A stretch of DNA of 64,000 bases from the NCBI RefSeq assembly GCF_000720175.1, contig NZ_JOIX01000028.1, positions 1 through 64,000 on the forward strand. The letters are read 5' to 3'. Both the position numbers and the translations under genes were made by a program. This document shows, one piece after another, positions 13,140-30,096 of this stretch. The DNA is from Streptomyces sp. NRRL S-337. GTDB lineage: Bacteria; Actinomycetota; Actinomycetes; Streptomycetales; Streptomycetaceae. The notes beneath the pieces are model-generated. The model was not told the origin of the DNA and did not search any database. It was given only the letters and a program-made list of their open reading frames with translations. Positions within the stretch are counted from its first letter, which is position 1. Every line of letters begins with the position of its first letter.

Positions 13140-14156
13140 ATGGCCGGTACTTCGGTGGACACGAAGAGCAGCGGGAGCGGGACCACGGGGGCACGCCCGG
13201 TGGTGTCGGGGTGGGGCGCGTGGGGGCGGGCGCTGCTGGGGGGTACGGTGATGGCGGTCGCGCTGGGGGCGGGCAATGCGCTGGGGGAACGGCTGGCGCG
13301 GGCGCTCGGCGCGGACGGCTGGGCGCGGCAGTTGCTGCCCGCGGTGCTGGTGAGCGTGGTGGCCGTGGGCGGTGTACGGGCGTTGCGGTCGGCCGGGCGG
13401 TGGGCGGGCGGCCGCCGGCTGGGGGCGGGGCCGCCGGCCGCCGCGGTGCGGGCCTTCCTGGGCGGGCTGGCCGTCACGGTGTCGTGTGCCGGCCTGGTGC
13501 TCGGGGCGGGCACGGCGGCCGGGTGGGTGCGGTGGTCCGGGCTCGACCCGGCGGCGCTGGGGGCGTTCCTGACGGGCAATGCGCTGGTGGCGGTGCTGCT
13601 GGAGGCCCTGCCGGAGGAGACGACGCTGCGCGGGCAGGCCTGGGCGGCGTTGCGGGACAGGTTCGGCGGGGTGGTGTCGGCGCTGGGGACGACGGTGGTC
13701 TTCCTGCTGGTGCCGGCCGCGTCCACGGTGGTGCAGGCCGGTACGGCCCGTGTGGTGGGCGAGGATCCGCCGCCGGTGGGCGCGACCCCGGCCGGCCAGG
13801 ACCCGTCGGCGTATCTGGTGCTGCTCGCGGTGTTCGGGCTGACGCTGGTGGCCGCCCGGACCGTTCCCGGCCGCGCCCCGCTGTGGGCAGCGATCGGTAC
13901 GCATCTGGCGTTCCTCAGCGTCAACCGGGTCGTGTTCGAGGGACGCGAGCGTGCGGCGGGCTGGTCGGCGAGCGTCGCCCCGGCGCATGCCGCGGTCCTG
14001 GAACTCGGCTATCTGGTGCTCACGGCAGCGGTCTTCGTGGGGACGCGGTGGCTGTCGGGCCGGATGCGGGGGCGGGCCGCGCGGCGCTCGGTCGCCCGGA
14101 CCAGGATCCCCACCAGTACGGCGAGGTCGGCGGCACCGTCGGGGTCGTCGGCGTAG
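13140..14156 (+). CDS. CPBP-family intramembrane metalloprotease (Rce1/abortive-infection type)
   Basis: 338 aa from ATG 13140. About eight hydrophobic segments are visible. The signature EALPEETTLRGQ (about residue 155) contains the EExxxRG motif of the CPBP family, with the two glutamates that help bind metal. Members process prenylated proteins, or peptides in bacteriocin self-immunity; the target here is unknown. The last 50 codons overlap the 3' end of the convergent fic gene by 148 bp. The tail after the last helix (RMRGRAARRSVARTRIPTST...) looks like translated antisense rather than a conserved end, so the original stop may have been lost. Confidence 0.72.
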   Translation: MAGTSVDTKSSGSGTTGARPVVSGWGAWGRALLGGTVMAVALGAGNALGERLARALGADGWARQLLPAVLVSVVAVGGVRALRSAGRWAGGRRLGAGPPAAAVRAFLGGLAVTVSCAGLVLGAGTAAGWVRWSGLDPAALGAFLTGNALVAVLLEALPEETTLRGQAWAALRDRFGGVVSALGTTVVFLLVPAASTVVQAGTARVVGEDPPPVGATPAGQDPSAYLVLLAVFGLTLVAARTVPGRAPLWAAIGTHLAFLSVNRVVFEGRERAAGWSASVAPAHAAVLELGYLVLTAAVFVGTRWLSGRMRGRAARRSVARTRIPTSTARSAAPSGSSA

Positions 14157-14740
14157 CGGGTGGTCTGGAGGGGGCCCACCTCGTCCAGGACGACGCCTTC
14201 GCGGGCCAGGACGAAGGTGAGGGCGAGCAGCGCGGCCCGGCCGTTGCCGTCCGGGAAGGGGTGGTGGAAGGCCACGTCGAGAAAGGTCCGGGCGGCGCGG
14301 GCGGGCAGCGGCACGCCCGCCTCGTCGGCCTCGCGTAGGCAGCGGGCGAAGTCCGCGCGGGTATGCGGGGTCAGCGGGTAGCGCTCGCGGCCGTTCTTCG
14401 CGTAGGCGTCGCCGGTCCGGAACGGTGCGTCGGGGGTGCCGAGGACCAGGCGCTGCCAGCCGGCCAGCAGGCCGAAGGTGAGCGGGGAGTGGCGCGTGGC
14501 GTCCGCGCGGGCCAGCGCGTGGGCGGAGCGCAGCCGCCCGGCGCGGACCGGGTCGCGGCGGCGGACCGGGCCGTCGCACCAGGCGGTGAAGCCGTCCGTG
14601 GCCGGGACGACCGGGCCGGTGGCCTCGTACGCGCCGGTGTGCGCCCAGTCGACCCGCGCCCTGGCCCGGTGCCAGGCGGCCGTCGCATCGCCGGCCGGGG
14701 CGGGCGGCCCGGCGTCAGTGGCGGGTGTGCCGGCGGTCAT
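14009..14740 (-). CDS. Fic-domain protein (AMPylator-type)
   Basis: 243 aa from ATG 14740. The Fic signature HPFPDGNGRAALL is near residue 157. It contains the catalytic His and the DGNGR loop, but the second arginine of the canonical HxFx(D/E)GNGRxxR is replaced by Leu. That arginine normally contacts the ATP phosphates, so activity may be altered. I see no clear (S/T)xxxE(G/N) inhibitory helix in this protein or its partner. The gene starts inside the end of the upstream gene (26-bp overlap), so the two are translationally coupled. Fic proteins attach AMP or other nucleotide parts to target hydroxyls. It appears to be the last gene of a five-gene operon. Confidence 0.8.
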   Translation of the reverse strand: MTAGTPATDAGPPAPAGDATAAWHRARARVDWAHTGAYEATGPVVPATDGFTAWCDGPVRRRDPVRAGRLRSAHALARADATRHSPLTFGLLAGWQRLVLGTPDAPFRTGDAYAKNGRERYPLTPHTRADFARCLREADEAGVPLPARAARTFLDVAFHHPFPDGNGRAALLALTFVLAREGVVLDEVGPLQTTRYADDPDGAADLAVLVGILVRATERRAARPRIRPDSHRVPTKTAAVSTR

Positions 14741-15508: not shown

Positions 15509-16309
15509 TTATGCCCGGTCGTCCCGCATGCCCGCCTCCGCTTTTCCGTCCGGTGCGAGGGTGCGGGCGCGGAGCAGCACCATGCCGGTGTCACCGTAGT
15601 CGGGGCGGGTCGGGTCGGGGCCCACATGGGTGAGGACGAGCTCGTCGGTGCGGGGGCCGAAGACCTCACGGATGACGGTGGCGTCGACCGGGCAGCCGGG
15701 CCATGCGGGGGCGGTGCCGATGCGGTAGGTCGGCATGTTCTCCATGAAGGAGGCGACGAGGTGGCCGCCCGGGCGCACCGTGGCGATGTAGGTGCGGCAG
15801 AGCTGGGCGAATTCCTCGAAGTCCTCGGTGATGCTCTCGGCCACGAAGTTCATCGACGCCAGTTCGTAGGCGCCGGCCGGCAGGGTCCGGACGTCGTCGT
15901 GCAGTACGCGGACGCGGGCCAGGGCCTCGGTGGCGGTCGGGGGCAGTGCGGGGTCCAGCTCGCGGCAGAAGGCGTAGAAGGCCTGCCAGCTCTCGTCGGG
16001 GCCGTGGCTGAGCTGGCCGGTCAGGTAGGCGACGTTGGCCGCGCTGCGCTCGACCGCGTCCACCTGCCGGCTGGCGGCGCCGGCCAGCATCAGCGGGTAG
16101 AGGTTGGGGCCCGCGCCGAATTCCAGGGAGCGGGCGATGCTGCCGGGCGCGAACCGGCGGTAGAAGGCGGAGTGGTGCCGGATGACGGCCGCGTCGCAGG
16201 GGTGGATCTCGCGGTAGTTCTCCGCGAGGTAGTCCTGGACCGGCCAGTGGTCCCAGTCGGCGTCGTCGTTGCGGACCGGACCCGGCGGGTGTTCGGCGGG
16301 CTCTTTCAT
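15509..16309 (-). CDS. SAM-dependent methyltransferase (NNMT/PNMT/TEMT-like)
   Basis: 266 aa from ATG 16309, with GAGGG close upstream. The SAM-binding region reads ARSLEFGAGPNLYPLMLAGA (about residue 62), followed by an acidic strand VDAVERSAANVAYL. Near residue 165 a conserved-looking SMNFVAESITEDFEEF precedes TVRPGGHLVASFMENMPTY. This layout, with the GAGPNLYP motif, is that of the small-molecule N-methyltransferase group including NNMT, and of the actinomycete SCO2525-like proteins. The ATG overlaps the stop of the MFS gene (ATGA), so it is translationally coupled. It probably methylates the product of the upstream alpha-oxoamine synthase or something derived from it (inference from the operon). 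Confidence 0.75.
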   Translation of the reverse strand: MKEPAEHPPGPVRNDDADWDHWPVQDYLAENYREIHPCDAAVIRHHSAFYRRFAPGSIARSLEFGAGPNLYPLMLAGAASRQVDAVERSAANVAYLTGQLSHGPDESWQAFYAFCRELDPALPPTATEALARVRVLHDDVRTLPAGAYELASMNFVAESITEDFEEFAQLCRTYIATVRPGGHLVASFMENMPTYRIGTAPAWPGCPVDATVIREVFGPRTDELVLTHVGPDPTRPDYGDTGMVLLRARTLAPDGKAEAGMRDDRA

Positions 16310-17583
16310 GTGCCCTCTTTCGCGGTGCGGGGCGCACTGCCCCGGTCCACCGAGCGTACGCCCGGCACGTAGAGGAAGACCAAGGTGACGACGGCCCCGA
16401 GGACGCCGGCGCCGATGAGGGTCGCCCGGACGCCGGCGGCGGCCGCGACCGGCGCGGCCAGGGCGTAGGACAGCGGCAGCAGGGAGATCGACACGAACCA
16501 TTCGACGCTGGAGACCCGGCCGAGCAGGGCGCCCGGTACGAGCCGCTGCTTCGCGGTGGCCCAGGCGACCAGGCCGGCGGTCTCGAAGCCGTTGACGGCG
16601 GCGCAGGCGACCGCCAGTTGCCAGGAGTGGGTGGCCAGGCCGTACCCGGCGACGGCGAGCGTGGCCAGCGTCCAGGAGACGTACACGAAGGTGATGAACC
16701 TGCTCGGCACCCCGGTCTGGCCGACGGCCAGGGCGACCAGCACGGACGCCAGTCCGCCGCAGGTGAGCACCACGCCCAGGTCCGCGGCGGAGCCGTGCAG
16801 CCCGTTCTTGACCAGGTAGGGCAGCAGCACCTCGGCCGGGCCGAGGAAGAGCAGGTAGGCGAAGGTGGCGGAGACGAAGGTGGCCCAGAGCCAGCTGTTG
16901 GCCCGGACGTACGCCAGTCCGCTGAGCAGGTCGGCCCAGAGCGAGCCCCGGGCGCCGGACGGTGGCGGCTTGGGGCGGATGCACAGCAGACAGCCCACGG
17001 ACACGGCGAAGGTGAGCGCGTCGAACGCGAACGCCCCGCCGGTGCCGATGCCGGCGACCAGGATGCCGCCCAGCGCGGTACCGCCGATCTGGACGGCGGC
17101 CGGGCGGACGAACTGGTCGAGGGCGTTGGCCTGGACGAGTTCGGACTTCAGGACGAGGGTCGGCACGACGGCGTCGTACGCCGGGGGGAAGAATCCGGCG
17201 GCGCCGCCGTACACCATGACCACGACGATCAGCTGCCACAGCTCCAGGGCGCCGCCGAGGGCCAGGACGGCCAGCGTGAGCAGGCAGACGAAGCGGACGA
17301 GGTCACTGATCAGCATGGTGCGCCGGCGGTCGAAGCGGTCGCTGACCACGCCGCCGAGCAGCACCAGGGCGACCTGTGGCACGGCCCGTGCCACGCCGAC
17401 CGCGGACATCGCGCCGGGCGAGCCGGACAGCGTGTAGACCTGCCAGGCCAGGGCGACGAGCAGCACCCCGTCGCCCACCAGTGAGATGCTCATCCCGATC
17501 CACAGGACCCGGAAGTCGCGGTGGGCGAGCGGGGTGAGCAGCCGTACCCGGCGGGCCCGGCCCGCATCCTCCATGACGCGCAT
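16306..17583 (-). CDS. MFS transporter (drug/metabolite exporter type)
   Basis: 425 aa from ATG 17583, which follows the TGA of the upstream gene directly (TGAATG); GAGGA lies about 6 nt upstream. Eleven to twelve membrane helices are visible, with the MFS loop 2-3 signature GGVVSDRFDRRRTM at about residue 80. The sequence resembles the MFS_3/EntS-type exporters of actinomycetes. The position between an alpha-oxoamine synthase and a methyltransferase suggests export of the molecule they make. Importer function cannot be excluded from sequence. Confidence 0.85.
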   Translation of the reverse strand: MRVMEDAGRARRVRLLTPLAHRDFRVLWIGMSISLVGDGVLLVALAWQVYTLSGSPGAMSAVGVARAVPQVALVLLGGVVSDRFDRRRTMLISDLVRFVCLLTLAVLALGGALELWQLIVVVMVYGGAAGFFPPAYDAVVPTLVLKSELVQANALDQFVRPAAVQIGGTALGGILVAGIGTGGAFAFDALTFAVSVGCLLCIRPKPPPSGARGSLWADLLSGLAYVRANSWLWATFVSATFAYLLFLGPAEVLLPYLVKNGLHGSAADLGVVLTCGGLASVLVALAVGQTGVPSRFITFVYVSWTLATLAVAGYGLATHSWQLAVACAAVNGFETAGLVAWATAKQRLVPGALLGRVSSVEWFVSISLLPLSYALAAPVAAAAGVRATLIGAGVLGAVVTLVFLYVPGVRSVDRGSAPRTAKEGT

Positions 17584-20500
17584 TCAGGTCCTCTGCCGGA
17601 GGTCGAACCGCTCGGCCAGGGCGGAGATCGTCTCGTTGAGCCGGCCGATGTCGTCGTCGGTGTTCGCGGCGGTGACCTGGATGCGGATGCCCACCCGGTT
17701 GCGCGGGACGAGGGGGTACGCCGCCAGCGTCACGTAGATGCCGCGGTCCCACATGAACCGGCCGACGTCGCCCAGGTCGGAGTCGCGGGCGAGGGGGAGC
17801 TCGATGATGGGCAGTCCGCTTTCGTTGGGGGTCTCGATGCCCAGCAGGTAGAGGTGGTCCAGGATGCGGGCGGTCTTGCGGTGCAGGGCGGCCCGGACGG
17901 TGTCCCCGCGCCGGTCGTTGACGTCGAGGCCGGCGAGCGCGGTGGCGAGCGACGCCGTGGGGGACGGCCCGGAGTACAGGTACGGCGCGGCGGCGACCTT
18001 GAGGTGGTTCTTCAGCCACGTCGGCAGGGCCAGGAACGCCAGCAGCGAGGAGTACGCCTTGGAGAAGCCGCCGACCAGGACGATGCCGTCGTAGGTCTCG
18101 CCGAGGTGCCGCACGATGCAGTTGCCGCGGCTGCCGTACGGGGAGGTCTCGCCGGTGCCGCGCTCGCCGATGACGCCGAACCCGTGCGCGTCGTCGATGT
18201 AGAGCAGGGCGTCCCGCTGCCGGCAGATGCCCGCGAGCAGGGGCAGGTCGGGGAGATTTCCGGTCATGCTGTCGACGCCGTCCAGGCACACCAGGCGGGA
18301 GGCTCCGCGCGGCGCCGAGCGCAGCAGGACCTCGAGTTCGTCCGGCCGGTCGGCGTGGAAGCGCTGCACCGTGGCGCCCTGGCCCCGGGCCACCAGGCAT
18401 CCGTCGTAGACCGTGCGGTGGGCGCGGGCCTCGACGAAGATGTGTCCCTCGCCGGCCAGTACCGGTATCACGGAGGCGTGGATGAGGGTGATGGTGGGGA
18501 GCAGCAGGCTGTCCTGGGCGTGGAGCAGCGCGGTGAGCCGGTCCTCGATGTCGGGGTAGAGCCGGGGGTTGCCGATCAGCCGTGACCAGCTGGGGTGGGT
18601 GCCCCAGCGCCGGACCTGCGGTTCGATGGCGGCCATGATCTCGGGGTCGAGGTCGAAGCCCAGGTAGTTGCAGGAGGCGAAGTCGATGAGCCAGTGGTCG
18701 CCGCTGCGCAGGTGCCGGCCGTCCACCTCGTCGATGACCGCGTCGCACATGGGGTTGGTCTGTCTCAGGCGTTCGAGCTCGCCCCACCGCGGATCGCGTC
18801 GTGCTCCGCCGGTTGTCCTCAGTGCCTTGTGCACGTGGTCCTCCTCCGCCCCGGACCGGCGGGTACCGGTGCGCTGTGGGTCTGAGGGTGCGGTGGTCCG
18901 GCGGGATACCGGGCTGGTCGCCGCGCTGCCGGCCAGGACCGGGGCCCGGCGCTCGGCCGTGCTCCGCAGCAGCTCTTCCGCCTGGTCCACCGTCATCGGG
19001 CGGGCGAACAGATAGCCCTGCCCGTACCGGCACCCCATGGTCAGGAGCCGGTCCCGTTGCACGTCCTCTTCGATGCCTTCGGCGATGACCTGCAGACCGA
19101 GCGTGTCGGCGATGCGCACAATACCCTCGACCAGGGCGACTTGTTGGGTATCGACGCCTATGTCGTCGATGAACGATTTGTCGACCTTCAGCAGGTCGAT
19201 GGGGAATTCCCGGAGATAGCTGAGCGACGAGAAGCCGGTGCCGAAGTCGTCGATCGCCATGCGCACGCCGAGATCCTTGAGCGCCCCCATCACGGCGCGG
19301 ATCTGCTCGTCGGAGTGCATCAGGACGGTCTCGGTCAGCTCCAGTACGAGGGAGCCGTGGGCCACTCCGGTGGCGTCGAGGACGGCACGGACCTCGTCGA
19401 GGAAGCCGGGGTCGCGGAACTGCCGGGCGGAGACGTTCACGTTGATGTGCAGCGGGTCCGGCCGGGGCAGCTCGCGCTGCCAGCGGGCGAGGTTGGCGGT
19501 GGCCTGCTGGAGCACCCAGGCGCCGAGCGGCATGATGTGCCCGGTCTCCTCGGCGAGCGCGATGAACTGATGGGGCGTCACCGAGCCGCGCCGGGCGTGC
19601 GGCCAGCGGGCCAGCGCCTCGAAGCCGGCGAGCGCGCCGGTCGCGATCTCCACGATGGGCTGGTAGCGGACGTCGAACGCCTCCGCGTCCAGCGCGCCCT
19701 CCAGCCGGGACCGGAGTTCGTGCCGTTCGAGCATGCCGGTGTGCAGCCCCGCCTGGTAGCGGCGCCACTGCCGCTTGCCGGCCGTTTTCGCCGCGTACAG
19801 GGCCAGGTCGGCGTGGCCGAGCAACTCCTCGGCGTCGGCGCTGTCCAGGGCGGTGGCGATGCCCACGCTGGCGGAGGTGCTGACCATCTGCGCGGAGAGC
19901 CGGAAGGGCTGGTTGAGGTTCCGTACGACCTGTTCACCGAGCGCTTCGGCGTCGGCGGGCTCGCGCACGCCTTCCATGAGCACGCCGAACTCGTCGCCGC
20001 CCAGGCGCGCCGCGGTGTCGCTGGCCCGCATCGTTCCGGTCAGCCGTCGTGCCACCGCGATCAGCAGTGCGTCGCCGACGGAGTGGCCGCTGGTGTCGTT
20101 GACGACCTTGAAGTCGTCGAGGTCGATGAAGAGGACGCAGGGGACGGTGCCGTCGCGGCGGCCGCGCAGCAGGGCGCGCTCGATCCGCTCCAGGAGGAGC
20201 AGCCGGTTGGGCAGGCCGGTGAGCGCGTCGTGGAAGGCGCGGTGGGTGAGTTCGCGTTCGAGTTTGCGCTGCTCGGTCACGTCCCGCAGGGTCAGGACCA
20301 GGCCGTGGACGGTCTGGTCGTGCCGCAGGTTGCTGCACCGGGCCTCGACGTCGATGCGGGCGCCGTCACTGTGCAGGACCTGCCAGTCGTCGCGGCTGTC
20401 CTGGCAGTCGCCGTCGCGCATCCGGGCCAGGGCGCGCAGGGCGCGTTCGCCGTCCTGTTCGGCCATGAGGTCGGCGAGGCGCACTCCGTTGAGCGGGGTG

Positions 20501-22062
20501 CGGCCGAACATGCCCTCCGCGGAGGGGCTGGCGTAGCGGATGGTGTTGTCGTCGTCGAGGATGAGGATGACGTCCGAGGTGTTGTGCACCAGGGTGCGGA
20601 AGTACGCCTCGCTGTTGCGCCGGTTGATCTCCTGGCCGAGCGCCACGCGCTCCATCGCCAGGGCCGCCTGCGCGGCGAGGGTCTCGAAGGAGCCCCACCG
20701 TTCGGCCAGGCTCTTCTCGGTGCCGGCGACGATCAGGGCACCGATCAGGGAGTCCCCGGCGGGGCCGTTGCTGACGGCCAGTGGGCAGAGCAGCGCGCTG
20801 GGCAAGGGGGCGAGTTCCGCGGCGGCCTCCGGGCCGAGGTCGGCGACGCGCACGATCTGGGTCTCGCGGGCGAGGAGCCGGGGGCGCCAGGAGTCGGCCG
20901 ACTCGTCCTGCCAGTCGACGGTCCAGGTGTGCGGCTGTGCGGCGGAGGGCACGGTGTGCAGCCGGGTCTCGCCGGGGGTGAGGGTCAGCAGGGCGACCTC
21001 GTAGCCCACCCCGGGGCCGAAGAGCGGTCCGGCCGCCCGGCGGATCGAGTGGGCGATCTCCTCGACGCCGGACGTGGACACCAGCGTGGCGGCCGCCACC
21101 CGCAGGCCGCGTTCCCGGGTCACGGCCCTCAGGTGCACCACGACCAGCCCCGACAGCCGGGCGAACACGAGCAGGAAGAGCACGGCCGAGAACACCGCGA
21201 TCACGGGCACGTCCTGCAGGTCGCCACGGACGGCCTCCTGGATGAGCAGCACGGGCGCGATGAGCGAGGCCAGCGCGAGCACGGCGAGCCGCCGGGGGTG
21301 GATACCCGCCTGGCGTACGGGGGTGCGCTCGGTCAGTTCCACCATCGACGGGTGCAGTGCGGCCAGACCCCAGGCGGTGAAGAAGACCACCCAGCCCAGG
21401 TCTATCGGCGTGCCGACCTGCCAGACCCCTTTGAGCTGGAGGAGCCCGTACAGGACGTCGGAGAAGAGGATGCCGAAGGTGCCGAGGGTGAGGAACTGGA
21501 CGGCCCGGGTCCGGGCGGAGCCGGGTGTCAGCAGCCGGGCGAGCATCGCCAGCATCAGCACGTCACCCAGCGGATAGGCGATCGAGATGGTCCGCTGGAC
21601 CCACGTCATGTCGGGGGCCGTGGTGTACGGGTTGATCAGGTAGTCCCAGGAGAGCAGGGCCAGGCCGGACGTGAGGATCATCGCGTCCAGCAGGCTCGCC
21701 ACGTCGCGGCCGGTCCGGCGGTAGCGGATGAAGCCCAGCAGCCCGGCGGCGAACAGGGGGTAGGTCGCCAGGTAGAAGACGTCGGCGAGGGAGGGGAACG
21801 GGTTGTCCTGGTGCAGGAAGGTGTTGAGCACGTTGTACGTGGTGTCGCCGGCGCCGAAGGCGAGGTTCGCGGCGGCGAGCACCAGCCAGGGCCAGGCGTG
21901 GGCCGGCCGGTGCATGCGGATCCCGGCGATGATGGCCCACACGCTGCCGAGGACGATGGCGGCCCAGGTGACGGTGTGTGCGGAGGGCACCGTCAGGTAG
22001 ATCACGGTGGGCGGGATCACGAGGATGACGTACGCGGCCATCAGGCGGTGTATGCGGCTCAA
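17584..22062 (-). CDS. Fused membrane GAF-PAS-GGDEF-EAL protein and alpha-oxoamine synthase
   Basis: 1492 aa from TTG 22062 (GGAGGAGG 9 nt upstream; an alternative TTG lies at 22116). About ten membrane helices (residues 1-325), a GAF-like region (340-480) and a PAS domain (500-615). The GGDEF domain has intact GGDEF at 688-692 and the RxxD feedback site RASD at 679-682. The EAL domain has EAL at 815-817 plus DDFGTG and AEGIE. Then a Pro/Arg/Thr linker and, without any stop, a full fold-type I PLP enzyme (1077-1492) with DDAHGFG and the Schiff-base lysine in GGFSKAYSS (K1335). The last part is family to CqsA, BioF and KBL, which join an amino acid to an acyl-CoA. Both c-di-GMP halves look catalytically competent. 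A strong internal start (18834) may also yield the 416-aa synthase alone. First gene of the operon. Confidence 0.85.
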   Translation of the reverse strand: MSRIHRLMAAYVILVIPPTVIYLTVPSAHTVTWAAIVLGSVWAIIAGIRMHRPAHAWPWLVLAAANLAFGAGDTTYNVLNTFLHQDNPFPSLADVFYLATYPLFAAGLLGFIRYRRTGRDVASLLDAMILTSGLALLSWDYLINPYTTAPDMTWVQRTISIAYPLGDVLMLAMLARLLTPGSARTRAVQFLTLGTFGILFSDVLYGLLQLKGVWQVGTPIDLGWVVFFTAWGLAALHPSMVELTERTPVRQAGIHPRRLAVLALASLIAPVLLIQEAVRGDLQDVPVIAVFSAVLFLLVFARLSGLVVVHLRAVTRERGLRVAAATLVSTSGVEEIAHSIRRAAGPLFGPGVGYEVALLTLTPGETRLHTVPSAAQPHTWTVDWQDESADSWRPRLLARETQIVRVADLGPEAAAELAPLPSALLCPLAVSNGPAGDSLIGALIVAGTEKSLAERWGSFETLAAQAALAMERVALGQEINRRNSEAYFRTLVHNTSDVILILDDDNTIRYASPSAEGMFGRTPLNGVRLADLMAEQDGERALRALARMRDGDCQDSRDDWQVLHSDGARIDVEARCSNLRHDQTVHGLVLTLRDVTEQRKLERELTHRAFHDALTGLPNRLLLLERIERALLRGRRDGTVPCVLFIDLDDFKVVNDTSGHSVGDALLIAVARRLTGTMRASDTAARLGGDEFGVLMEGVREPADAEALGEQVVRNLNQPFRLSAQMVSTSASVGIATALDSADAEELLGHADLALYAAKTAGKRQWRRYQAGLHTGMLERHELRSRLEGALDAEAFDVRYQPIVEIATGALAGFEALARWPHARRGSVTPHQFIALAEETGHIMPLGAWVLQQATANLARWQRELPRPDPLHINVNVSARQFRDPGFLDEVRAVLDATGVAHGSLVLELTETVLMHSDEQIRAVMGALKDLGVRMAIDDFGTGFSSLSYLREFPIDLLKVDKSFIDDIGVDTQQVALVEGIVRIADTLGLQVIAEGIEEDVQRDRLLTMGCRYGQGYLFARPMTVDQAEELLRSTAERRAPVLAGSAATSPVSRRTTAPSDPQRTGTRRSGAEEDHVHKALRTTGGARRDPRWGELERLRQTNPMCDAVIDEVDGRHLRSGDHWLIDFASCNYLGFDLDPEIMAAIEPQVRRWGTHPSWSRLIGNPRLYPDIEDRLTALLHAQDSLLLPTITLIHASVIPVLAGEGHIFVEARAHRTVYDGCLVARGQGATVQRFHADRPDELEVLLRSAPRGASRLVCLDGVDSMTGNLPDLPLLAGICRQRDALLYIDDAHGFGVIGERGTGETSPYGSRGNCIVRHLGETYDGIVLVGGFSKAYSSLLAFLALPTWLKNHLKVAAAPYLYSGPSPTASLATALAGLDVNDRRGDTVRAALHRKTARILDHLYLLGIETPNESGLPIIELPLARDSDLGDVGRFMWDRGIYVTLAAYPLVPRNRVGIRIQVTAANTDDDIGRLNETISALAERFDLRQRT
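18832..18847 (-). promoter_or_regulatory. Internal ribosome site and GTG start inside the fused gene
   Basis: Minus-strand GGAGGAGG (18847-18840), a 5-nt spacer ACCAC, then GTG (18834-18832), in frame with both the upstream EAL part and the downstream synthase. From here the alpha-oxoamine synthase would be 416 aa, the family's usual length, with its catalytic lysine at residue 259. No stop codon separates it from the EAL domain, so fused and free enzyme could both be made. Confidence 0.65.
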
Positions 22063-22175
22063 AGCGAACCGCCTCCTCCCGTGACCGGACGGACGCCAAC
22101 CGTCCTGCGCGGTCAACCTGAACGCTTTTTGATACTATGTCCGCTTTTCCGTATATGCATGACGGCATGGGTCAT

Positions 22176-22220: not shown

Positions 22221-23744
22221 TCACCCGGCGCGCAGCTCCTTCTTGAGGATCTTGCCGGTGGGGCCCTTGGGCAGCGCGTCGACGAGCCGGATCTCGCGGG
22301 GGTACTTGTACGCGGCAAGCTGTTGCCGGCAGTGGGCGGTGAGTTCCTCGGGAGTGGTGTGCGTACCGCGGCGCAGCGCGACGACGGCGACGACCTCCTC
22401 GCCGAGCCGGTCGTCGGGGCGGCCGATGACCGCGGCCTCGGCCACGGACGGGTGGGCGTACAGGGCCTCCTCGACCTCGCGCGGGTAGACGTTGTAGCCG
22501 CCGCGGATGATCAGGTCCTTCTTGCGGTCGACGACGAAGAAGTAGCCGTCGTCGTCCTGGTAGCCGAGGTCCCCGGTGTGCAGCCAGCCGTCGCGCAGCG
22601 CCTCGGCGGTCTCCTCGGGACGCCGGAAGTAGCCCTTCATGACGTTGTGGCCGCGGATCAGGATCTCGCCCACGTGCTCGGGACCGGGCGGCAGCGCGAC
22701 GCCGGTGTCGTCGGCGATCCGCACCTCCACGCCCCAGATCGGCTTGCCGATGGAGAGCACCTTGCGCTGCTCGACACTGATGTTGAAGGTGGCGGTGCTG
22801 GCCGTCTCGGACAGGCCGTAGCCCTCCAGGACGGCCACGCCGGGGAACTTCTCCTCGAAGGCCCGGATGGTCTCCCCCGGCATCGGCGCGCCGCCGCAGG
22901 CCCCGACGCGCAGTGCGGTCAGGTCCCGGTGGGAGGTGTCGGCCTGGAGGAGGGCGGTGTACATGGTGGGGACACCGGCGAAGATGGTGCAGCGGTGCCG
23001 TTCGAGCGCGTCGAGGACCGCACCGGTCTCGAACCGCGGGACCAGGGCGAGCGTCCCGCCGTACCGGACGGCCAGGTTGAGGACGCCGGAGAGCCCGAAG
23101 ACGTGGAAGAGCGGCAGCACCGCGAGGGCGATGTCGTCGGGGCGGCAGCCGAACAGCTCGCCGGTGACGGTGCAGTTCATGTAGAGCTGGAAGTGGGTGA
23201 GCTCGGCGCCCTTGGGGCGGCCGGTGGTGCCGCTGGTGTAGAGCAGGACGGCGGTGTCGTCGGCGTCGGCCGGCTCGATCTCGCCGGTGTCGTCGGCGGT
23301 GGTGAGCTCGTCGTAGGGCCGGGTGCCGGCGATCCGCCGCGCGCTGCCGGGCACCGGGACGACGTACACCGGTACGCCGCCGCCGAGTTCGGCGCCCTTG
23401 ACCGCCTCGTCGGCGAACTCCTCGTGGGTGAGGAGCAGCCGGGCCCCGGAGTCGGTGAGGTGGTAGGCGATCTCGGGGGCCCTGAGCAGCGGGTTGAGCG
23501 GGACCATGACCAGGCCGGCCTTGAGGATGCCGAAGTAGGCGAACAGGAACTCCGGCACGTTGGGCAGGTGGACGGCGACCACGTCACCACGTTGCAGGCC
23601 CAGCGCGCGCAGGGTCGCGGCGACCCGGCCGGAGGTCTCGTCGGCCCCGGCATAGCTGACGGTCCGCGTGCCGTGGTGGCACAGGGGTTTGTCCGGGTGG
23701 TTCCGGCGGGATTCACGAAGAGCGATGGCGAGGTTGAAGCTCAT
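22221..23744 (-). CDS. fadD: Fatty-acyl-CoA / acyl-CoA ligase (ANL superfamily)
   Basis: 507 aa from ATG 23744, with AGGAG 5 nt upstream. ANL motifs appear in order: the P-loop YTSGTTGRPKG (about residue 160), GYGLSETAS (about 300), GWLHTGDLGY (about 385), DRKKDLIIRGG, and the C-terminal catalytic lysine in PTGKILKKELR. It activates a carboxylic acid with ATP and joins it to CoA. The length and LPLFHVFGLSG motif fit the medium/long-chain group, though aromatic acids cannot be excluded. It ends 158 bp before the start of the fused synthase gene on the same strand. It could supply an acyl-CoA to that enzyme, although it has its own promoter. Confidence 0.88.
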   Translation of the reverse strand: MSFNLAIALRESRRNHPDKPLCHHGTRTVSYAGADETSGRVAATLRALGLQRGDVVAVHLPNVPEFLFAYFGILKAGLVMVPLNPLLRAPEIAYHLTDSGARLLLTHEEFADEAVKGAELGGGVPVYVVPVPGSARRIAGTRPYDELTTADDTGEIEPADADDTAVLLYTSGTTGRPKGAELTHFQLYMNCTVTGELFGCRPDDIALAVLPLFHVFGLSGVLNLAVRYGGTLALVPRFETGAVLDALERHRCTIFAGVPTMYTALLQADTSHRDLTALRVGACGGAPMPGETIRAFEEKFPGVAVLEGYGLSETASTATFNISVEQRKVLSIGKPIWGVEVRIADDTGVALPPGPEHVGEILIRGHNVMKGYFRRPEETAEALRDGWLHTGDLGYQDDDGYFFVVDRKKDLIIRGGYNVYPREVEEALYAHPSVAEAAVIGRPDDRLGEEVVAVVALRRGTHTTPEELTAHCRQQLAAYKYPREIRLVDALPKGPTGKILKKELRAG

Positions 23745-23800
23745 TCGGGCTCCTGGCGGGGTGCGGCCCGACTCCACGTGGTGTGCGTCGGTGCGTGCCG

Positions 23801-23887: not shown

Positions 23888-25570
23888 TCACTTCCGCGCC
23901 TGGTGTGCGGAGCCGGACCGGGGCCCGTAGGCGGTCAGGAAGCGGTCGCGGAAGGTGTCCATCCGCCAGACCGGCGTCCTGGCTCCGGGCCGGAGGCCGG
24001 GCTGCCAGCCCCAGCCGGAGATCCGGCGCAGCACGGCCGGGTCGTGGGCGACGATCGCCACCGGTACGTCCCGGCCGGCGTGCTGGCCGGTGACGGTGGG
24101 GACCGGCTGGTGGTCGCCGAGGAAGACCAGCACGGTGTTCTTCCGGCCGTACTTCTCGACGTACGAGAGCAGGCTGTGCAGCGAGTACTGGATGGCCCGG
24201 CCGTACTCGGTGCGGACCCGGGCGGCGTCCTGCCACACGTCCTTGGGGTCCTTGCCGGCCGCCTTGACGGCCCGGTAGACCGAGCCGTCGCCGACCCGGC
24301 CCCAGCCGAGCATCTTCGGCAGCGGCGCCCACGGGTTGTGGCTGGAGGTCAGGATGATCTCCGACATCAGCGGCTTGCCGCCCCGCTTGCCGTGCTGCAG
24401 CCGCTCGAACGCGGACAGGCTGTACTGGTCCGGCATCCGCGACCAGCTGAAGTTCGGGCCCTGGTAGCCGAGGGTGCGGGAGTCGTAGACGGTGTCGAGA
24501 CCGTAGAAGCGGGCCTCCGGCCAGGACCGGCTGACGCCCGGCATGATGCCGACCGTGCGCCAGGCGCCGGTCCGCCGGAAGGCGCGGGTCAGGCTGAGCC
24601 GGTCGCTGGAGGTGACGGTGCGGTAGCGCTGCTGGTTGTTGATCCACAGGCCGGACAGGAAGGTGGAGTGCGCCAGCCAGCTGCCGCCGCCCGCCGTCGA
24701 GGAGGTGAGCCAGCCGCTCCGGGCGGTGAAGCCGGCCCGCCGCAACTGCTCGGTCCCGTCCGCGAGCACCGTGTCGACGCCGGGGCCTATCACCGGGTCG
24801 TCGATCGCGGTGCGGCCGTAGCTCTCGATGAAGGTGAAGATGACGTCCTTGCCGCGCAGTCCGTTCAGCAGCCGGTCGGGCGGCGTGCTCCCGAAGGGGT
24901 CGGTGGCCGCTTCCGCGGCGAAGACCCGCTCGTCGGCCAGGCTCGTCCGCACCTGCCGGGCGCGGTCGTCGAGGTGTTCGGCGGTGGTGCGGGAGGCGAG
25001 CGGCGCCCCGGCGAGCTGGAGGCCGAGCGCGGCGCTGACGAGCCAGGCGGTCCCGAGGACGAGGGTGCCGCGGGTCGCCAGGGAGCTGTGCCGGGCCAGG
25101 ACATGACTCAGCCGGAGCACGGCCAGCGCCATGAGCACGGGCAGGGCGAGCGCGACGAGCACGGCCCCGACGACGGCGGCGATCGCCCCCGTCCGGCCCG
25201 CCGAGTCGTCGAGGAACGACGCGGCGTCGCCGAACAGCCCCCAGTCCAGCACCGGGTCGAACGGCCTGACCAGCACCGCGCGGAAGCCCATGTCGAGGAG
25301 GTCGAGCAGGGTCATCAGGCCCAGGACCACGCCGGCGAGCACCGCGACGACCCGTCGCGGCCTCGGCGGCAGCAGGAGCAGCAGCGCCGCCCCGGCGATC
25401 CCCTCCACCGGTATCCGGACGAACGCGCCGGGCGTCAGGCGGATCAGGTCGTCCGGCAGGACCAGCGCGCCGAACACGAGCACGGCGGCGAGGACGGAGG
25501 TGACGGCCCGCCTCCGGCGCCGGTTCGTCCCCCTGGCCAGGAGCTGACGCAGCTGCGTGATGAGCGGCAC
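23888..25570 (-). CDS. Membrane sulfatase-fold protein (LTA-synthase/phosphoglycerol-transferase-like)
   Basis: 560 aa from GTG 25570 (AAGGA 7 nt upstream); a GTG at 25672 would add 34 residues but has no ribosome site. Four or five N-terminal membrane helices (to about residue 200) precede an extracellular alkaline-phosphatase-superfamily domain. Candidate metal-site motifs are FIESYGR (about 250), the nucleophile region GGGSWLAHSTFLSG (about 300) and LGDHQP (about 490). This is the plan of LtaS/OpgB-type enzymes, which move phosphoglycerol, and of actinomycete membrane sulfatases. It may modify a cell-wall polymer or lipid. It is divergent from the secreted protease with a 282-bp shared upstream region. 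Confidence 0.75.
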   Translation of the reverse strand: MPLITQLRQLLARGTNRRRRRAVTSVLAAVLVFGALVLPDDLIRLTPGAFVRIPVEGIAGAALLLLLPPRPRRVVAVLAGVVLGLMTLLDLLDMGFRAVLVRPFDPVLDWGLFGDAASFLDDSAGRTGAIAAVVGAVLVALALPVLMALAVLRLSHVLARHSSLATRGTLVLGTAWLVSAALGLQLAGAPLASRTTAEHLDDRARQVRTSLADERVFAAEAATDPFGSTPPDRLLNGLRGKDVIFTFIESYGRTAIDDPVIGPGVDTVLADGTEQLRRAGFTARSGWLTSSTAGGGSWLAHSTFLSGLWINNQQRYRTVTSSDRLSLTRAFRRTGAWRTVGIMPGVSRSWPEARFYGLDTVYDSRTLGYQGPNFSWSRMPDQYSLSAFERLQHGKRGGKPLMSEIILTSSHNPWAPLPKMLGWGRVGDGSVYRAVKAAGKDPKDVWQDAARVRTEYGRAIQYSLHSLLSYVEKYGRKNTVLVFLGDHQPVPTVTGQHAGRDVPVAIVAHDPAVLRRISGWGWQPGLRPGARTPVWRMDTFRDRFLTAYGPRSGSAHQARK

Positions 25571-25852
25571 CCGAGGGTCCTTCCGTACGAGGCGGACTGA
25601 TGTGGCGACGGACCCGGCAGGCGGCCGGTCGTCGTTGTCCGTCTGTACGGCCCGGCGGCGCGGTCCGTTCACCCGTCCGTACAGGTGATTCCTGGAGAAG
25701 TGTGGGCGGCCGGGGGTGGTGCACGGGCAGGGAGAGTAGACACCCCGCGCCGCCTCGCCCGGCCTTCGGCCCCGCCCGTGGCGCCAGTAGCCCTTGAGGC
25801 GTGCGCATCACCGAGACCCGCTGCTGGCCCGCTCCCCAGCGAGAGGTTTGTG

Positions 25853-27000: not shown

Positions 27001-29082
27001 TCAGATCCTCGCCGGCGGGCGGTTGCGGTGCCGGTGGGCGGCGGTGGCCTCCGCGAAGGCTCGGGCGAAGGCGTCACCGTTCGCGGCGGCGGTCACCACG
27101 CCCTGGTCGCTCACCGGTTCCGCGCCCCCGGAGGCGGTGCGCACCTGGCCGGGCAACAGTTTCTTCAGCACCTCGATCCCGGAGCCCAGGGCGCCGATGG
27201 CCTTGCCGTGCCGGTAGGCGTCGAGCACGAAGCGGCGGGCGGCGCCGTCGGCCGCGGTGTCGCCGGCCCCGAGGCCGCCGTCGGGCAGCACCACCGCGTC
27301 GTAGAGCACGGAGGCCACGGTCGGCAGCGCCCGGTCCGCCGACAGGCTGCCGGAGGCGCCGGAGACCTCACCGTCCTGGGGCGCCAGGGCCTCGACGAAG
27401 GCGCCCTGCTCCCCCAACGCCTGCTTCAGTCCGCCGACTTGCTGCGCGTCCACGCCGTCCATGACCAGGACCGCGATCTGGCGGCTGCGGATGGAGCCGT
27501 CGCCCTTGAGGTTCTCGAAGCTCAGCGCGGGGGACGGGGTGGGCCGCGGGGTGTCGGTGGCCTCCGGGGCGGGAATGCCGAGGCCCTCGGCGACCTTGGA
27601 GGCCAGGGTGTGGTCGATGTGCGCCAGCTCGCCGACGGTGCGTTCGCGGACCTCCTTGGCGTTGACCTTGCCCAGTTCGAAGCGGAACGCGTCGATGATG
27701 TGCTGCTGTTCCCAGTCGGCCATGCTGTGCCAGAACAGCGCCGCCTGGGTGTAGTGGTCGGTGAAGCTGGGGCTCCGCTGACGGATCTTCCGCCCGTCGA
27801 CCCGCTCCGTCAGGTGCCGGAAGGCGGATTCGTCGGCGCCGGCGAGGGCCGGGCAGCCGCCGCCGAGGGAGTTCGGCGAGTAGCTGGTGCCCTGGTGGAT
27901 CCGGCTCTGGTGGTAGCCGTCGCGCTGGTTGTTGCGGACCGGCGCGAGCGGCCGGTTGACCGGCAGCTGGGGGAAGTTGGGCCCGCCCAGCCGGATGAGC
28001 TGGGTGTCCAGGTACGAGAAGTTCCGGGCCTGCAGCAGGGGGTCGTTGGTGAAGTCGATGCCGGGCACGACGTTCGCGGTGTGGAAGGCGACCTGCTCGG
28101 TCTCCGCGAAGAAGTTGTCCGGGTTGCGGTTGAGCACCATCCGGCCGATGGGCCGCACCGGCACCAGCTCTTCGGGGATGATTTTGGTGGCGTCGAGGAG
28201 GTCGAAGTCGAAGGAGTGCTCGTCCTCCTCCGGTACGAGCTGGACGCCGAGTTCGTATTCCGGATATTCCCCGGCCTCGATCATGTCCCAGAGGTCGCGG
28301 CGGTTGAAGTCCGGGTCGCGGCCCATCGTTTCCTGCGCCTCGTCCCAGACCAGCGAGTGCACCCCGAGCTTGGGCTTCCAGTGGAATTTCACGAACGTGC
28401 CCTTGCCCTGCGCGTTCACGAAGCGGAAGGTGTGCACGCCGAAGCCCTGCATCATCCGGTAACTGCGCGGAATGGCCCGGTCCGACATCAGCCACATCAT
28501 CATGTGGAGGGTTTCGGGCTGGAGCGAGACGAAATCCCACAGGGTGTCGTGCGCGGACGCCCCGGTGGGGATCTCGTTGTGCGGCTCCATCTTCACCGCG
28601 TGCACGAAGTCCGGGAACTTGATGCCGTCCTGGATAAAGAAGACCGGCATGTTGTTGCCGACCAGGTCGTAATTGCCTTCCGAGGTGTAGAACTTCGTGG
28701 CGAATCCACGGACGTCCCGCACGGTGTCCGCCGAACCGCGCGGGCCCTGGACCGTGGAGAACCGCACGAACACCGGCGTCTGCACGCCCGGATCCTGGAG
28801 GAAGGCGGCCCGGGTGAACTCCGCGCAGGACTCGTAGGGCTGGAAGTAGCCGTAGGCGCCGGCGCCCCGGGCGTGCACCACCCGCTCCGGGATCCGCTCG
28901 TGGTCGAAGCGGGTGAGCTTCTCCCGGAAGTGGAAGTCCTCCATCAGCGTCGGGCCGCGTTCACCCGCCTGCAGCGAATCGTCGGTGTGGTCGACGGTCA
29001 CGCCCTGGTCGGTGGTGAGCGGACCGGCGGCAGGATCGTCCGCGAAATGCGCGCGGCGCTGCTCCTGTTTCTGGTCCGCCAC
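27001..29082 (-). CDS. katE: Large-subunit monofunctional catalase (HPII/KatE type)
   Basis: 693 aa from GTG 29082. Catalase core: the active-site His in [11 protein letters not shown], the Asn in [11 protein letters not shown] and the haem-ligand Tyr in [11 protein letters not shown]. The extra C-terminal domain (about 540-693), beginning [16 protein letters not shown], has the flavodoxin/DJ-1-like fold typical of large catalases. The enzyme splits hydrogen peroxide into water and oxygen in the cytoplasm. The start lies one base after the TGA of the upstream DJ-1/PfpI gene (TGAGGTG), so the two are translationally coupled. Such pairs fit stationary-phase or osmotic stress use. Confidence 0.95.
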
Positions 29083-29083
29083 C

Positions 29084-29632
29084 TCAGGCCGCCCTTCCCG
29101 CCTGGGCGAATTCCGTGACGAAGGTGGCGCAGAACGCCTTGAGATCGGCCGGCTTACGGCTGGTGATCAGCGTGTTGTGGCCCGCCGTACAGACCTTGAC
29201 CTGCTCGTCCACCCAGGTGCCGCCGGCATTGCGGATATCGGTCTGCAGACTCGGCCAGGACGTCAGGGTGCGCCCCCGTACCACATCGGCCTCGACCAGC
29301 GTCCAGGCCGCGTGGCAGATGGCCGCCACCGGCCGGCCCCGGTCGAAGAAGCTCTTCACGAAGGCGACCGCGTTCTTGTCCATCCGCAGCGCATCGGGAT
29401 TGGCGACGCCACCGGGCAGGACCAGACCGCCGTACTCCGACACGTCGACCGCGTCCACCGTCCGGTCCACCGGAAAGGTGTCGGCCTTGTCGAGGTGGTT
29501 GAACGCCTGGATCCGGCCGGACTTGGTGGACACCAGGTGGGGAACGTCCCCCGAATCCAGAACCGCCTGCCAGGGGCCGGTCAGTTCGACCTGCTCGACA
29601 CCCTCGGGCGCTACCAGGAAAGCAATCTGCAT
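29084..29632 (-). CDS. DJ-1/PfpI-family protein
   Basis: 182 aa from ATG 29632, with AAAGGA upstream. It matches the PfpI plan: Glu in PEGVEQVEL near residue 11-16, LVLPGG, and the nucleophile elbow AICHAAW with reactive Cys at about residue 105. Relatives act as intracellular peptidases, chaperones or glyoxalase/deglycase-type repair enzymes. The PfpI/YhbO group is stress-induced. It is coupled to the catalase gene, whose own C-terminal domain has the same fold. That supports a joint oxidative or carbonyl-stress role. Confidence 0.88.
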
Positions 29633-30096
29633 GAGCCGTGGTTCCTTTCTTGCTGCGGTGCTGAGGCCGCTGCCATGAGTGCGGTCACGCCGGTCGTCGG
29701 CACACGGCGCGGGTGCGGCGGACGCCGGGATCGCGCGCAGGACGAATTCCCGGTGGGCCCGGCCGCCCATGCCGGATCCGCCGCGATTAAGCCGGATGCG
29801 TCCCGCGGTAACCGAACGGCTCGCGACCGCCGCACGGCCGCTCCGTCCGGTCCCTGAGCCGGGTGCCCGGCGCGCGGCCGGTGAAACGGGGTGGCGGGGG
29901 GCCGCGGCCGCCGCCCGGCGCACATGCGCACCGCAACGCCTCCGGGTAGCGTCGGAGGGGCGACGCGCAGGGGCCGCCCCGCGATGCGCCGGTCCCGCCG
30001 CGTCCGCACGCCACACGAAGGGCTCTTCGACGCCACACAGTCAGGCGGCCAGGGCCCTCGTCATCACGGGCAACGGGCTCGACGAAAGGGCTCCTC
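29633..30096. other. Divergent intergenic region
   Basis: 464 bp between the PfpI start (minus) and the SDR start (plus). A small hairpin (29939-29958: CCTCCG with its complement around 8 nt) is the only clear structure. It should hold both promoters, but I found no confident -10/-35 pair. No coding frame is convincing. Confidence 0.45.

Follow-up and report, generated by a model that had tools for sequence, protein, structure and literature searches.

CdgF-type c-di-GMP proteins of Streptomyces that continue into an alpha-oxoamine synthase

The DNA analysed here, a stretch of 64,000 nucleotides from Streptomyces sp. NRRL S-337 that we refer to as the window, encodes a membrane-bound GGDEF-EAL protein of the CdgF type that runs in frame into an alpha-oxoamine synthase (AOS). 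This CdgF-AOS fusion is real and is neither unique nor an artefact, and the member found in S. venezuelae is almost certainly the known c-di-GMP enzyme CdgF. According to the reading that we prefer, with a probability of roughly 0.55, the membrane-located AOS of the CdgF family produces an alpha-aminoketone that is subsequently methylated, and does so in response to the input that also governs c-di-GMP turnover. As far as can be judged from the encoded proteins, the fusion suggests that small-molecule production is tied directly to second-messenger control.

The fusion protein and its operon

The minus-strand frame 17584-22116 comprises 1510 codons without a stop. Its best start is a TTG at 22062 located behind GGGAGGAGG, resulting in a product of 1492 aa (Table 1), and this start matches the upstream end of the single open frame, 17584-22062, given in the preliminary description, which is thus confirmed. 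No in-frame stop is present between 18840 and 18990, the interval in which a stop or a frameshift would have spoken against one continuous protein. A domain-by-domain search of the translated frame with Pfam identified PAS (residues 505-617 in the numbering of the 1510-codon frame), GGDEF (627-782), EAL (804-1040) and the fold type I PLP domain Aminotran_1_2 (1180-1496). The proposed PAS domain, GGDEF domain with RxxD site and EAL domain were all recovered, GGDEF and EAL with their catalytic residues. Of the ten membrane helices and the GAF domain assigned to the amino-terminal part, a membrane region was found, with eight hydrophobic segments instead of a firm ten, and the GAF domain is represented by weak matches only (E 0.05). 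No Pfam family matched the first 330 residues of the window fusion. Protein P0002 has the same length as the window fusion (1492 aa), and the AOS parts of the two are 97% identical.

Table 1. Features of the fusion gene and its neighbours in the window
Feature	Position	Strand	Evidence
CdgF-AOS fusion, 1492 aa: membrane, GAF-like, PAS, GGDEF, EAL, linker, AOS	17584..22062	-	open frame, GGGAGGAGG, Pfam
Membrane region, 8 hydrophobic segments	21127..22062	-	Kyte-Doolittle
GAF-like region (weak)	20617..21126	-	GAF_3 E 0.054, GAF_2 E 0.058, both below cut-off
PAS domain	20266..20604	-	PAS_4 E 1.4e-11
GGDEF domain, GGDEF motif and RxxD site intact	19771..20238	-	E 8e-43
EAL domain, catalytic residues intact	18997..19707	-	
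Linker, Ala/Arg-rich, predicted disordered	18793..18948	-	pLDDT, linker lengths, codon-position substitutions
Internal ribosome site GGAGGAGG (18847-18840) and GTG (18834-18832), possible start of free AOS	18832..18847	-	
Alpha-oxoamine synthase (AOS) domain	17584..18777	-	
MFS transporter, presumed exporter	16306..17583	-	MFS_3 E 1.4e-33
SAM methyltransferase, NNMT/PNMT/TEMT type	15509..16309	-	PF01234 E 2.3e-6; NNMT chains (PDB) E 3e-4
AMP-binding acyl-CoA ligase, upstream	22221..23777	-	NF004837, 506 bits (cut-off 476)

Residue conservation was scored over the window protein and 120 other fused proteins. The GGDEF residues are kept in 120/121 sequences, and the arginine and aspartate of the RxxD site in 121/121 and 120/121. 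The residues E, N, E, DD, K, E and Q, the catalytic set of the EAL domain, are retained in 119-121 of 120-121 sequences at each position. The window fusion hence carries the GGDEF and RxxD motifs of a diguanylate cyclase together with the residues of an EAL phosphodiesterase. In the AOS domain, the PLP lysine K1353 within FSK (120/121), the stacking H1233 (121/121), the DDAH residues D1308 and D1309 (both 121/121) and H1311 (120/121), and the substrate-binding R1478 (121/121) are kept, as aligned to serine palmitoyltransferase (SPT) 3a2b. In nine pairs of fused relatives, dN/dS was 0.10-0.29 for the AOS, 0.06-0.40 for EAL and 0.11-1.10 for the linker. Residue retention and substitution ratios, taken as sequence-level indicators, thus show that the catalytic residues of all three enzyme domains are kept and that both halves are under purifying selection.

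Downstream, the MFS start codon follows directly after the fusion stop, and by coordinates the methyltransferase ATG overlaps the MFS stop (ATGA). The methyltransferase scored 124.9 bits against the SCO2525 family NF040568, below the cut-off of 240. In each of the 45 Streptomyces-family loci tblastn detected a methyltransferase gene behind the AOS; in four of them (the window, L002, L130 and L151) an MFS gene separates the two. Tblastn revealed no such methyltransferase in L003 and L109, nor in any of 13 loci from a second family of the order. The upstream acyl-CoA ligase is a possible acyl supply; its relatives occur in three of 23 neighbourhoods, namely the window, L002 and, with intervening genes, L034. 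A scan for promoters and terminators found none, and a plasmid search returned one EAL fragment as its sole match. The surroundings of the operon also contain a weak Fic/DOC domain protein adjoining it (14009-14740), a 594-aa protein upstream of the ligase (23888-25672) that has no Pfam match and that by eye we would guess to be a sulfatase or phosphoglycerol transferase, and, at 27001-30016, a long catalase that ends in a DJ-1-like domain and has a DJ-1/PfpI gene as its immediate neighbour.

Occurrence and history of the fusion

An assembly error can be rejected, since the identical arrangement occurs in the complete genome of a second species, S. nigrescens HEK616 (L002), whose AOS is 97% identical to that of the window, and since the linker evolves as coding DNA. 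Substitutions in the linker at codon positions 1/2/3 amounted to 59/55/111 in the nine pairs, of which two include L037, and this excess at third positions is the pattern of translated DNA; in fusions retaining an internal start, the end of the linker would be coding either way.

In every one of the 45 Streptomyces-family loci compared (the window, L002 and 43 fetched loci), a membrane-GGDEF-EAL gene is directly followed by the AOS on the same strand. The two are fused in frame in 33 loci and form separate genes in 12, so the possibility that homologues are always two genes does not apply. Two of the separate loci, L053 and L151, have a broken AOS next to a remaining GGDEF-EAL part and methyltransferase. 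The pair is adjoining and separate in L003 (Dactylosporangium), in L109 and in 13/13 loci of the second family. Among 121 genomes of the genus that were searched, 20 besides that of the window contain a close AOS relative, with 68-75% identity in the 19 full-length copies and a broken copy in G009. Most of the 121 genomes also have more distant AOS-type genes at about 27-34% identity. Relatives numbered 26 at E 1e-90 or better in 297 genomes of the family, and at E 1e-80 they numbered 36 in 394 genomes of the class and 33 in 147 genomes of the order, each count including the window's own genome and the genome draws overlapping. A protein search in which the 7990 candidates sharing most words were scored yielded at least 536 proteins as long as the fusion that match at E 1e-40 or better; as we read the 120 listed, each contains the PLP domain and the EAL domain, and P0082 alone lacks a GGDEF domain. 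The same fusion, which the preliminary description proposed to look for across actinomycetes, is accordingly found in many Streptomyces and in numerous deposited proteins.

An AOS tree was built from 64 sequences, of which 33 are fused, 12 are separate (L003 and L109 among them) and 19 belong to family f18; the broken L053 and L151 were left out. It requires six changes between the fused and the separate state, and the tree of the c-di-GMP part of CdgF requires seven. The starred branches of the AOS tree alone force three changes for the fused group. Judged by these gene trees, repeated fusion or fission is shown, with the two-gene operon as the other state. The lineages nearest the root (L003 and L109) have separate genes. 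The trees do not tell gain from loss of the fusion; the old start site, which survives in six fused loci, favours several fusions.

This start site corresponds to a GTG at 18834 in the window, 5 nt downstream of GGAGGAGG, which coincides with the start position of the separate AOS genes of relatives. In the ten intact separate Streptomyces-family loci, the AOS starts 20-22 codons ahead of its conserved core, preceded by a ribosome site in which 4-6 bases match. A strong internal site of 6-7 bases, 19-20 codons ahead of the AOS core, is retained in six fusions, namely the window, L002, L038, L129, L132 and L141. When a lenient scan was applied, 18/33 fusions had a ribosome site and start in the interval between EAL and AOS and 15/33 had none; L037, the locus taken to be that of CdgF in S. 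venezuelae, is among those in which the scan found none. We read this as a series from an operon via a read-through fusion that keeps the old start to a complete fusion. The window fusion belongs to the middle stage, with both forms perhaps being made, and in its lineage the internal ribosome site, going by its match and position, probably gives some free AOS besides the fusion.

The c-di-GMP part also occurs without the synthase. A CdgF-type membrane and GAF-like region was detected at E 1e-40 in 24/121 genomes of the genus, comprising all 21 that hold the AOS and three more. Eight CdgF-type genes in six of the 121 genomes have no adjoining AOS. Behind five of these (L162, L163, L164, L165 and L167), at a distance of about 75 nt, comes a gene that encodes an MbtH-adenylation-carrier-thioester reductase (A-T-R) protein of about 1090 aa, identified by Pfam in three cases and by 82% identity in the other two. 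Relatives of the L163 reductase at 80% identity or more exist in 5/121 genomes, which are the same five CdgF loci, and the next relatives have 50% identity or less; around ten such distant A-T-R loci, the 12-13 kb fetched contain neither a CdgF-like nor an AOS-like gene. The five A-T-R-paired CdgF proteins form one clade (100/100) in the CdgF tree, outside the AOS-paired ones apart from the root lineages L003 and L109, and three genomes (G114, G099 and G009, the latter with the broken AOS) contain both kinds of CdgF. The idea of a cassette swap between AOS and A-T-R at one locus, which had arisen from shared flanks, was dropped in view of the separate clades and the genomes with both.

In the remaining three genes (L160, L161 and L166), which fall in three separate places of the tree, no partner was found, and both AOS and methyltransferase are absent. 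They keep part of the neighbourhood common to cdgF genes, which consists of an epimerase, a UDP-glucose dehydrogenase or a beta-helix protein upstream and a GH15-like gene downstream. The CdgF genes that lack an AOS, three with no partner found and five with another enzyme, indicate that the c-di-GMP part also serves purposes independent of the synthase. Of 55 loci compared, 24 have near cdgF at least one gene for a beta-helix protein, a GH15-like protein, GalE, a second epimerase or UDP-glucose dehydrogenase, the names being assigned by eye except for the beta helix. The neighbours of cdgF suggest a link to polysaccharides; such neighbours were not seen near the cdgF copy of the window.

Family f18 (L110-L128) has an AOS of 55-64% identity that is not behind a CdgF gene in 19/19 loci. 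A GGDEF-EAL gene is located one to two genes from this AOS in 17/19 loci, often with an Aat-like gene (by eye) in between. In the eight tested cases it is nearest RmdB (43-50%), and it lies mostly on the other strand. For these reasons it was not counted as independent support.

Relation to CdgF and to known synthases

CdgF (vnz_02140), one of the ten c-di-GMP enzymes of S. venezuelae, is described as 10TM-PAS-PAC-GGDEF-EAL, with both activities predicted (Al-Bassam et al. 2018, PMC6205966). In the 8.22 Mb, one-contig genome G015, inferred to be S. venezuelae, the positions of eight GGDEF genes follow the eight chromosomal vnz numbers with an r of 0.9998. The gene at 0.49 Mb, the only one left for cdgF, is the fusion, and on account of the matching positions it is taken as CdgF; it agrees with vnz_02140 in position and architecture. 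A 1547-aa fusion, P0110, also carries the label S. venezuelae. For vnz_36075, called a putative diguanylate cyclase (PMC12096830), no counterpart was present among the eight GGDEF matches in G015.

The fusion family thus corresponds to published CdgF in position and in its 10TM-PAS-GGDEF-EAL order with catalytic residues, whereas CdgF as published ends at EAL and the fusion family continues into the AOS. The terms 'aminotransferase' and 'synthetase' do not occur in the main text of PMC6205966, and no mention of an AOS was found there. CdgA, CdgC, RmdA and RmdB have the GGDEF-EAL core in common with the fusion, several of them also membrane or PAS inputs. The published tables for S. venezuelae and S. 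ghanaensis contain no hybrid GGDEF-EAL protein whose chain includes a biosynthetic enzyme, and within the literature consulted no report was found that joins c-di-GMP proteins to an AOS. The preliminary description knew of no described protein of this order; CdgF was published without its AOS, and the fusion itself is found in many Streptomyces. C-terminally FLAG-tagged CdgF was reported in the membrane fraction only (PMC6205966), which fits a tethered AOS. In the same work, no effect on development was seen when cdgF was deleted in S. venezuelae and the mutant grown under the conditions chosen there, and the function of CdgF was still called undefined in 2026 (PMC13232838).

The claim of a complete PLP enzyme is borne out by the fold type I structure and by the superfamily residues, i.e. 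the PLP lysine in FSK, the stacking histidine, DDAH and the substrate arginine. As for its type, which was given as CqsA/BioF/KBL, the domain is nearer to SPT, BioF, KBL and ThAOS and does not belong to the CqsA group. The window AOS remained below every NCBIfam cut-off and fits no curated family: it reached 172.8 bits with BioF TIGR00858 (cut-off 426), 143.8 bits with SPT NF047599 (cut-off 500) and 69.3 bits with CqsA NF005526 (cut-off 428). Among 54 members, the best E value was 5e-28 for CqsA compared to 3e-60 for BioF. CqsA chains were among the weaker AOS matches by profile (51 bits) and came last among the 50 listed entries of the fold search. Membership in CqsA was rejected on these grounds. 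SPT 3a2b, ThAOS 7poa, BioF and KBL share fold type I and the catalytic residues with the window AOS, at 18-26% identity in the fold alignments listed. It differs from known AOS by its fusion to c-di-GMP enzymes and by THPSWSR in place of the glycine-rich motif. The PLP-pocket motifs THPSWSR and PTITLIHASVIP are nearly invariant and differ from those of SPT, so that the reaction could differ as well. By profile scores and motifs, the AOS is a subfamily of its own. The autoinducer synthases CqsA and LqsA are stand-alone enzymes that have superfamily and fold in common with it and are distant in sequence and fold rank.

Possible functions of the fusion

In the preferred reading, the AOS would join an amino acid and an acyl thioester into an alpha-aminoketone under loss of CO2, the methyltransferase of the operon would methylate this product, and in the lineage of the window the MFS protein would export it. 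The fusion would place the synthase at the membrane, in a fixed ratio with the c-di-GMP module and under the same input, and shared location, ratio and input would let c-di-GMP turnover and product formation respond together. A model of 1180 residues consists of mostly confident domains and a disordered linker, with a pTM of 0.42, and therefore predicts no domain interface and gives no sign of direct contact; a fold search with this multi-domain model returned AOS, EAL and GGDEF-EAL structures. The linker has a pLDDT of about 25-35 (model residues 727-778), and its length, measured between two fixed motifs, ranges from 65 to 126 residues among 110 fused proteins. Given this predicted disorder, tethering and shared dimerisation seem likelier than a rigid allosteric interface. 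Shared dimerisation is a possible route of coupling because AOS enzymes form homodimers that share their active sites and because GGDEF and EAL domains act as dimers. The preferred reading is favoured by the fusion in 33/45 loci, the strict gene order in the others, the trees, the retained catalytic residues, the AOS fold and the methyltransferase in 45/45 loci. Against it count the low pTM, the normal development of the cdgF mutant, the tblastn result for the methyltransferase in L003, L109 and the second family, the CdgF genes that lack an AOS, the f18 loci with their AOS elsewhere, the deviating PLP-pocket motifs and the unmatched gene vnz_36075.

It is possible, if rather doubtful, that the fusion is a tether and nothing else, in which the AOS makes a membrane lipid base or another metabolite and the two activities, fixed in ratio and location, have no effect on each other. 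The disordered, length-variable linker and the low pTM would agree with this, as would the many lineages that keep separate genes in unchanged order and the presence of SPT, the maker of a membrane lipid base, among the nearest relatives. However, the repeated fusion or fission with one particular c-di-GMP protein, and a paralogous clade paired with another enzyme that is expected to yield an alpha-amino carbonyl, suggest something beyond co-expression. The products released by A-T-R enzymes are amino aldehydes or alcohols, and both partners of CdgF should consequently make alpha-amino carbonyl compounds. On this basis, we put forward, quite tentatively, that the CdgF family is a modular chassis whose AOS or A-T-R product is a diffusible signal coupled to c-di-GMP. 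The AOS clade would then yield an aminoketone and the paralogous MbtH-A-T-reductase clade an aminoaldehyde, the product would be methylated or cyclised, and its synthesis would be gated by, or reported to, the same protein. A CqsA-type signal synthase, making an alpha-hydroxyketone or aminoketone autoinducer of the CAI-1 kind, is in our view improbable: superfamily, the small-molecule methyltransferase and MFS transporter in the operon, and a sensor adjoining the synthase, as lqsS lies next to lqsA, speak for it, but the profile and fold-rank distances from CqsA given above do not.

Equally improbable is a non-enzymatic AOS domain that senses PLP or a metabolite and passes this input on to the c-di-GMP domains. 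There is precedent for such a domain in the MocR-type regulators, and the unusual, nearly invariant PLP-pocket motifs could be seen in this light, yet the PLP lysine, the DDAH aspartates and histidine and the substrate arginine are almost fully kept, and a methyltransferase gene follows the AOS in 45/45 loci. We regard it as very unlikely that a stop was lost by error, or that translation begins mainly at the internal start, such that no fusion protein matters. The window and the five other fusions with an internal site at the start of the separate gene would allow for two proteins, as would, on the lenient scan, 18 of the 33 fusions in all. Opposed to this are the 15 fused loci with no ribosome site and start between EAL and AOS, the fusion in the complete genome of another species, the linker that evolves as coding DNA, and the report of C-tagged CdgF in membranes only (PMC6205966).

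If more than a quarter of the CdgF chain is indeed an overlooked biosynthetic enzyme, the absent developmental phenotype would obtain a possible explanation, and the existing cdgF mutants would at once be open to metabolomic re-examination. Second-messenger turnover and small-molecule synthesis would then reside on one polypeptide, an arrangement that has been reached or left several times by fusion or fission.
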